Assembly: GCA_019637295.1 (NCBI GenBank)
Contig: JAHBVX010000001.1
Location: 37,501 to 101,500 of the forward strand
Reading direction: 5' to 3'
Source of the DNA: Polyangiaceae bacterium
GTDB taxonomy: Bacteria; Myxococcota_A; Polyangia; Polyangiales; Polyangiaceae
DNA length: 64,000 nucleotides
Positions 6,555 to 7,188 of this stretch are shown here, in pieces. The position numbers and the translations under genes were made by a program. The notes below the pieces were generated by a model, which worked only from the letters and a program-made list of their open reading frames with translations, searched no databases and had not been told where the DNA came from. Within the stretch, counting starts at the first letter, position 1; every line of letters begins with the position of its first letter.

Positions 6555-7022
6555 CTACTTCTCGCCCGCGTCGCGCAGCTTCTGGAAGAACCCGCGTAAG
6601 CGTGCTGCGCACTCCGCCTGAAGCACCCCCGACGTCACTTCGAAGCGATGGTTGAGTCGCGCGTCCCGGCCGATGGTGAACAGCGAGTCCACGGCGCCTG
6701 CCTTGGGATCCGGTGTACCGTAGACGACGCGCGCGATCCGGGCGTTGACTAGCGCGCCCGCGCACATGGGGCACGGCTCCAGCGTCACGTACAGAGTCGC
6801 GGACTCGAGTCGCCAGTGCCCAGTAGCACGCGCCGCTGCGCGTAGGGCGACCAGCTCGGCGTGGGCGGTGGGATCTTGCTCGACCTCCCGCCGGTTCTCG
6901 CCCGTGGCCAGCTCCTCGCCCCCGGCGCTGACGATCACGGCACCCACAGGGACGTCCGCGTGCTCACCCGCGTGATCCGCAAGCTCGAGGGCACGACGCA
7001 TCCACGTTTCGTCCGAGGACAT
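6555..7022 (-). CDS. tadA: tRNA-specific adenosine deaminase TadA
   Basis: A 155-residue zinc deaminase that converts A34 to inosine at the wobble position of tRNA-Arg(ACG). The active site is complete: HAE at residues 54-56 (His ligand and proton-shuttle Glu) and PCPMC at residues 83-87 (two Cys ligands). The length is normal for the family. The gene lies 36 nt downstream of a tRNA-Arg(ACG) gene on the same strand. It is convergent with the GT51 gene (5-bp gap). No promoter was seen between the tRNA and tadA, so they are probably co-transcribed. Confidence 0.95.
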   Translation of the reverse strand: MSSDETWMRRALELADHAGEHADVPVGAVIVSAGGEELATGENRREVEQDPTAHAELVALRAAARATGHWRLESATLYVTLEPCPMCAGALVNARIARVVYGTPDPKAGAVDSLFTIGRDARLNHRFEVTSGVLQAECAARLRGFFQKLRDAGEK

Positions 7023-7058
7023 GGCTTCGGTCTCGAGCGCGCACGGGGCGCGTCGACC

Positions 7059-7135
7059 TGGCGCACTCGGGAGGATTCGAACCTCCGACCCCCGGTTCCG
7101 TAGACCGGTGCTCTATCCAGCTGAGCTACGAGTGC
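7059..7135 (-). tRNA. tRNA-Arg (anticodon ACG), CCA encoded
   Basis: On the - strand the 77-nt gene has a 7-bp acceptor stem ('gcactcg' pairs with 'cgagtgc'), a D-loop 'agctcagctggata', an anticodon stem 'ccggt'/'accgg' enclosing the loop 'ctacgga', and a T-arm with 'ggttcgaatcc'. The anticodon is A-C-G, which decodes CGU and, after A34-to-I editing, CGC and CGA. The 3' CCA is encoded at 7061-7059. A promoter-like pair lies about 26 nt upstream. Confidence 0.96.
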
Positions 7136-7160
7136 CCGTCCCAATGAGTCGAGGGCCGCC

Positions 7161-7188
7161 TTCATAGCACGTCCCCCGGCCGTCACAA
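7161..7188 (-). promoter_or_regulatory. Promoter for tRNA-Arg(ACG)-tadA
   Basis: On the - strand a -35-like TTGTGA (7188-7183) and a -10-like TATGAA (7166-7161) are separated by 16 nt. They sit 25 nt before the mature tRNA 5' end. Each hexamer matches the sigma-70 consensus at 4 of 6 positions. Confidence 0.55.

Follow-up and report, generated by a model that had tools for sequence, protein, structure and literature searches.

The window, that is, the whole 64,000-nucleotide stretch of Polyangiaceae DNA analysed here, carries a tRNA-Arg(ACG) gene followed by tadA, the gene for tRNA adenosine(34) deaminase, on the minus strand. The features of the locus are the following.

4210 to 6549, plus strand: convergent neighbour, gene for a transglycosylase-like protein (TIGR02070, 166.7 bits).
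6555 to 7022, minus strand: tadA, tRNA adenosine(34) deaminase, 155 aa (NCBIfam NF008113).
7023 to 7058, minus strand: 36-nt gap between tRNA-Arg(ACG) and tadA (sequence; terminator, promoter and folding checks).
7059 to 7135, minus strand: tRNA-Arg(ACG) gene, CCA encoded (ARAGORN; Rfam RF00005, 67.1 bits, E 6.3e-14).
7161 to 7188, minus strand: probable promoter, TTGTGA (7188-7183), spacer of 16, TATGAA (7166-7161) (sequence and five-locus alignment).
7225 to 8088, plus strand: divergent neighbour, aroE, shikimate dehydrogenase (TIGR00507, 200.9 bits).

ARAGORN, Rfam and NF008113 confirmed the arrangement given in the preliminary description, in which the tRNA gene lies 36 nt upstream of tadA on the same strand. 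The deaminase passes the NF008113 profile (167.9 bits versus a curated cut-off of 150) and contains HAE and PC..C residues that are invariant in alignment A1; we take these HAE and PCxxC motifs to be the zinc and catalytic residues of TadA. The aroE score is barely above the TIGR00507 cut-off of 200.2, and the best match of this gene, NF001319 at 243.4 bits, falls below the cut-off of 252. The TIGR02070 match of the convergent ORF is below the cut-off of 182.65 and spans residues 567-709. This ORF encodes 779 aa, and all its NCBIfam matches, among the matches listed, fall in residues 553-710. The tRNA-Arg(ACG) gene is the only tRNA that ARAGORN called in the window. A DNA search of the genome, with ARAGORN run on the best 10 of 25 matches, found one Arg(ACG) gene and one each of Arg(UCG), Arg(CCG), Arg(UCU) and Arg(CCU); because the assembly consists of 25 contigs at 98.5% completeness, a second Arg(ACG) copy may lie in an assembly gap. 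In the tadA gene itself, 11 of the 15 arginine codons belong to those that I34 reads (CGU 3, CGC 6, CGA 2), and CGC is the commonest arginine codon in four genes of the window (105/208).

A generic sigma-70 scan over positions 6400-7600 called neither a promoter nor a terminator; as consensus scanning of the window gave no match, comparative footprinting was applied. Each box of the TTGTGA/TATGAA pair, which was read by eye, agrees with the consensus at 4 of 6 positions (8/12 in total). In an alignment of the window locus with four relatives from its own family, CGTGCTAT (7171-7164) is invariant and the flanking sequence is mostly variable. This block overlaps the TATGAA box and includes the TGnTAT of an extended -10, and its invariance amid variable flanks is as expected if such an element lay there. 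A strict promoter pattern (TTGACA-like/TAnnnT, at most 100 nt upstream of the tRNA, with expectations from mononucleotide shuffles) occurs upstream of the tRNA at 16 of 39 pair loci of the own family (0.15 expected), the window locus not being among these 16, at 16 of 54 loci of other Myxococcota (0.7 expected) and, among the matches listed, at 3 of 19 loci of five other groups (0.9 expected). Between tRNA and tadA, the same pattern occurs in 0/39, 1/54 (0.7 expected) and, among the matches listed, 0/19 gaps, respectively. In these counts, and in those of terminators below, 11 other-group loci with another tRNA between Arg(ACG) and tadA were set aside. The window gap contains neither a terminator nor a promoter pattern by the generic scan and the strict pattern, folds into a small hairpin not better than those of shuffles (z -0.69) and has no strong ribosome-binding site that could be seen by eye. 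Hence, the promoter-like pair that had been proposed upstream of both genes gains support from the five-locus footprint but is called by neither the generic scan nor the strict pattern, and the accompanying claim that no promoter separates the two genes agrees with the searches of 7023-7058 and of the own-family gaps.

Gene order was compared across 144 genomes of the own order, 142 of which matched the search, and a phylum sample of 112, with 111 matched; not all matches are TadA, and loci were taken only at TadA-strength matches, which the own family has in 65 of 69 genomes. From the phylum sample, 40 of the 42 new Myxococcota places of TadA strength were taken (G175 and G182 were left out). 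Five other groups were represented by the best 30 of 41, 40, 39, 41 and 41 genomes, a choice that favours strong TadA matches. Seven loci from repeat genomes (L127, L128, L136, L142, L144, L146 and L153) were removed first, and 25 loci were dropped for short flanks. After this filtering, a same-strand Arg(ACG) gene at most 300 nt upstream of tadA was found at 37 of 61 own-family loci, so the preliminary proposal does not founder on absence of the pairing from relatives. The pair is also present at 50 of 117 loci of other Myxococcota and at 28 of 138 loci in the five other groups (among the matches listed), the last figure being somewhat high because three of the five seed genomes among the 150 other-group loci (Nitrospirota, Planctomycetota and Clostridia) had been picked for having the pair. 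An opposite-strand pair at that distance was seen once in 316 loci (among the matches listed). Of the 65 tadA loci of the own family, 39 carry a same-strand Arg(ACG) gene no more than 300 nt upstream, 3 carry one farther up, 22 have no upstream Arg(ACG) and 1 is short of flank; in one of those 22 (L036), an Arg(ACG) gene lies downstream of tadA on the other strand. By genus, with pair state assigned by hand, the pair is found in 21 of 34 own-family genera. Among 80 named loci, with distances measured from the match edge and some flanks short, eight have a same-strand Arg(ACG) within about 300 nt upstream, including those of a Nitrospirae MAG, a Thermodesulfovibrionales MAG, Ca. Scalindua, a Planctomycetota MAG and a Clostridiales genome, one (L202) has Arg(ACG) on the opposite strand, and 24 have a same-strand Ser(CGA) within about 300 nt downstream.

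The fullest gene order, Ser(UGA)-Ser(GCU)-Arg(ACG)-tadA-Ser(CGA)-Ser(GGA), is found in several Myxococcota families and some Nitrospirota, and the cluster occurs in full or in part in other Myxococcota families and in the Nitrospirota, Planctomycetota, Desulfuromonas-centred, Actinomycetota and Clostridia samples; Ser(GGA) is undercounted, since most Myxococcota loci had a 300-nt downstream flank. Clostridia-group loci often have Arg(CCU) between Arg(ACG) and tadA (e.g., L414, L415, L423, L428, L434 and L435). Among the matches listed, the 255 loci outside the own family comprise 65 with both Arg and Ser(CGA) linked to tadA, 96 with Ser(CGA) without Arg, 13 with Arg without Ser(CGA) and 81 with neither, so that tadA keeps Ser(CGA) at 161 loci and Arg(ACG) at 78. 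To our knowledge, serine tRNAs, Ser(CGA) included, are not substrates of TadA. The own family is an exception, in which Arg is retained (37/61 loci), no serine tRNA lies within the tested 200 nt downstream of tadA (0/61) and few gaps hold terminators; none of the other Myxococcota families with at least five loci has Arg without Ser throughout. In the window, Arg(ACG) precedes tadA on the same strand as in the cluster, and the flanking serine tRNAs are absent from the ARAGORN calls; the locus is therefore read as a cluster remnant. Judged from gene order, the pairing seems to be what remains of an ancient bacterial cluster to which serine tRNAs also belonged. In three genomes without the Arg link (L443, L444 and L445), the Ser(UGA), Ser(GCU), Arg(ACG) half persists at another place, with an inserted Arg(UCG) in L443, and tadA still lies beside Ser(CGA) and Ser(GGA); in a fourth (L446), the Arg(ACG) gene is solitary. 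The break in the three genomes separates the editor from its substrate and leaves tadA with tRNAs not known as its substrates, which argues against coupling as a general reason for the linkage. A literature search over titles and abstract openings of open-licence papers found no account of this cluster.

Terminator-like hairpins in the gap distinguish the own family, with 6 of 39 (2.7 expected), from other Myxococcota, with 30 of 54 (4.95 expected; Fisher p 9e-5, optimistic because the loci are related). The difference persists when gaps of at least 50 nt are compared (6/21 versus 30/42; p 0.0025, optimistic for the same reason), and in the five other groups such hairpins occur in 3 of 19 gaps (0.9 expected, among the matches listed). 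With hairpins also infrequent outside the phylum, the own family may have lost a terminator or may never have possessed one. As many other Myxococcota have a terminator between Arg and tadA, adjacency alone does not amount to one transcript. Among own-family tadA genes with no tRNA within 300 nt, only 1 of 25 has the strict promoter pattern (0.14 expected), suggesting that tadA may rely on transcription from upstream there too; at 17 of these 25 loci, the estimated tadA start lies no more than 64 nt from the end of a same-strand ORF (100 aa or longer), although in GC-rich DNA ORFs of this kind cannot be relied on.

Among 90 loci without an Arg(ACG) call, a recognisable upstream remnant is present only in L004 and L083. 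In L004 (1982-2028, minus strand), a 3' part of tRNA-Arg(ACG) covering bases 31-77 is identical at 47 of 47 positions and ends 16 nt before the estimated tadA start; the genome belongs to the same genus as two genomes that retain the pair. This remnant resembles the scar of an element that may have integrated in the anticodon loop, and accessory-looking genes lie upstream; an integrase was not recognised among the upstream ORFs inspected by eye. In L083 (1376-1450), the tRNA before tadA has the anticodon CCG and one T-arm change, same-genus genomes having ACG; the CCG anticodon is possibly an assembly error. With remnants in these two loci only, the putative integration route is seen once and need not be general.

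In some Myxococcota, both partners appear to be missing. In 22 genomes of seven families (f21, f25, f27, f29, f33, f36 and f37), the TadA profile gives weak matches only (best 1.3e-21). These genomes were chosen because no sampled member of their families had a TadA-strength match; five individual genomes from other families, likewise lacking such a match (G145, G155, G198, G199 and G202) were left out. A pattern search for ACG tRNAs in the 22 gave no ARAGORN-confirmed tRNA (16 of 17 matches checked, one in G226 excluded), at a sensitivity of about 70%, since the pattern recovered the tRNA in 7 of 10 TadA-bearing controls. ARAGORN identified tRNA-Arg(GCG) in 17 of the 22 (G148, G153, G157, G161, G169, G176, G180, G185, G189, G193, G197, G201, G205, G217, G221, G226 and G229; e.g., L477 1486-1562 and L506 1503-1579), and Ser(GCU) and Ser(GGA) adjoin in 12 of these 17. 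The GCG gene was confirmed in none of G165 (3' part only), G209, G213, G233 and G237. In TadA-bearing controls, the eight GCG-pattern matches with loci were all non-tRNA, four others lying outside this check. Locus L508 (1445-1490, minus strand) holds a 3' part of tRNA-Arg(GCG) from near the anticodon loop, the 5' half being replaced. Editor and substrate thus go together, in that TadA is missing and G34 is encoded in 17 Myxococcota genomes. The mean similarity of the GCG tRNAs is 0.73 to ACG (11 sequences), 0.77 to UCG (two) and 0.80-0.82 to CCG, UCU and CCU Arg tRNAs (one each); being less like ACG than like other Arg tRNAs, they speak rather against a simple base-34 mutation of Arg(ACG). 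According to the available text of PMC3711424, the ACG-to-GCG swap is known from TadA-less Mollicutes and others. The TadA-less Pneumoniae-group Mollicutes treated there share this decoding swap with the Myxococcota families, whose genomes differ in measuring 2.2-7.0 Mb and in often keeping tRNA-Arg(GCG) next to serine tRNAs.

The tRNA-Arg(ACG)-tadA pair is likely to be a tRNA-mRNA dicistronic unit and a remnant of the old Ser/Arg-tadA cluster, and the two genes are probably co-transcribed in the window lineage, as the promoter footprint and the terminator-free gap suggest. RNA polymerase would start about 20 nt before the tRNA and, meeting no terminator, would read through tRNA-Arg(ACG) into tadA. 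Cleavage by RNase P and a 3' nuclease would release the tRNA, the remaining tadA mRNA would have at most 36 nt of leader, and the TadA translated from it would make I34 on tRNA-Arg(ACG). The own family would have lost the serine tRNAs from the cluster. Against a dicistron stand the promoter, which scores only 8/12 and is called by no scan, the 24 of 61 own-family loci without the pair at this distance and the gap, in which no strong ribosome-binding site is apparent. That the two genes are linked at all is best attributed to descent within a tRNA cluster and not to a need to couple the editor with its substrate. Common control of substrate and editor, which the preliminary description expected from a shared transcript, fails as a general reason for the arrangement because Ser(CGA)-only loci outnumber Arg-only loci, tadA being linked more commonly to Ser(CGA) than to Arg(ACG), and because terminator-like hairpins occupy 30 of 54 gaps in other Myxococcota. 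A regulatory circuit does not follow from the pairing alone, real though it is; an advantage of joining editor and substrate may have arisen later and is not a demonstrated cause.

It is nevertheless conceivable, though unlikely, that selection kept the terminator-less pair in the own family because it is useful to coordinate TadA synthesis with that of its substrate, perhaps with feedback through tRNA processing or through CGC, CGU and CGA codons in tadA. The retention of Arg (37/61) with no Ser(CGA) (0/61), in which the own family differs from every other Myxococcota family with at least five loci, the pair in 21 of 34 genera and the 11 of 15 I34-read codons of tadA would fit such an operon, as would the competition of E. 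coli tRNA-Arg2 with mRNAs for TadA noted in the available text of PMC13170351. However, the serine tRNAs may have been lost only once, at the origin of the family, the 255 listed loci outside it include far more with Ser alone (96) than with Arg alone (13), TadA is retained at the 24 of 61 own-family loci without the pair, and the terminator-less gap is not specific to the family, as only 3 of 19 gaps listed in the five other groups hold a terminator. Moreover, lowering tRNA-Arg2 in E. coli brought no significant change in TadA protein, according to the same portion of PMC13170351. It is doubtful that the own-family cluster was pared to substrate tRNA and editor as a terminator-less operon in which the single tRNA-Arg(ACG) gene, through its supply of tRNA, determines how much TadA is made; if it was, such stoichiometric control would keep I34 formation in balance with translation rich in CGC and restrict mRNA editing at off-target sites. 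Less probable still are neighbouring genes with separate transcripts, in which a tadA promoter inside the tRNA or the gap would escape the pattern scans. These scans cover sigma-70 patterns only, and the gap terminators of other Myxococcota (30 of 54 loci) imply that tadA there has its own promoter or is reached by partial read-through; own-family gaps, by contrast, are as short as 15 nt and show the strict promoter in 0 of 39, and the window gap has no terminator. Chance adjacency of tRNA and tadA is scarcely credible, because the same-strand pair recurs in the own family and in other phyla (37/61, 50/117 and 28/138) against 1 opposite-strand pair (among the matches listed).

The tRNA-tufB operon of E. 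coli is comparable in joining tRNA genes to the gene of a translation protein within a single transcript, which processing then divides; unlike TadA, the tufB product is not a modifier of the tRNAs encoded beside it. A search of open-licence papers for tRNA-protein dicistrons found nothing. In E. coli, tadA is presumably not adjacent to the tRNA-Arg2 gene, and we take serV to encode Ser(GCU) and tadA not to lie alongside serV-argVYZQ. This tRNA operon, as given in the available text of PMC13170351, has Ser(GCU) and then Arg(ACG), like the upstream half of the old cluster, but contains four Arg copies, whereas in the window a single Arg gene stands without any Ser tRNA. In Bacillus subtilis, yaaJ (tadA) lies near a small RNA gene in yaaJ-scr-dnaX, as tadA lies near a tRNA here; yaaJ makes I34 in tRNA-Arg and is dispensable, and the available text of PMC10454642 mentions no adjacent Arg(ACG) gene.

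Should co-transcription be borne out, one transcript would carry both the message for an editing enzyme and the tRNA on which it acts, in a genome where four genes of the window use CGC, which this tRNA reads, more than any other Arg codon. The cluster marks an old tRNA gene order that spans phyla. Natural variants within the phylum, in which a terminator is present, the tRNA is displaced, or the enzyme is missing and Arg(GCG) is found, make it testable whether TadA dosage has to track its substrate.
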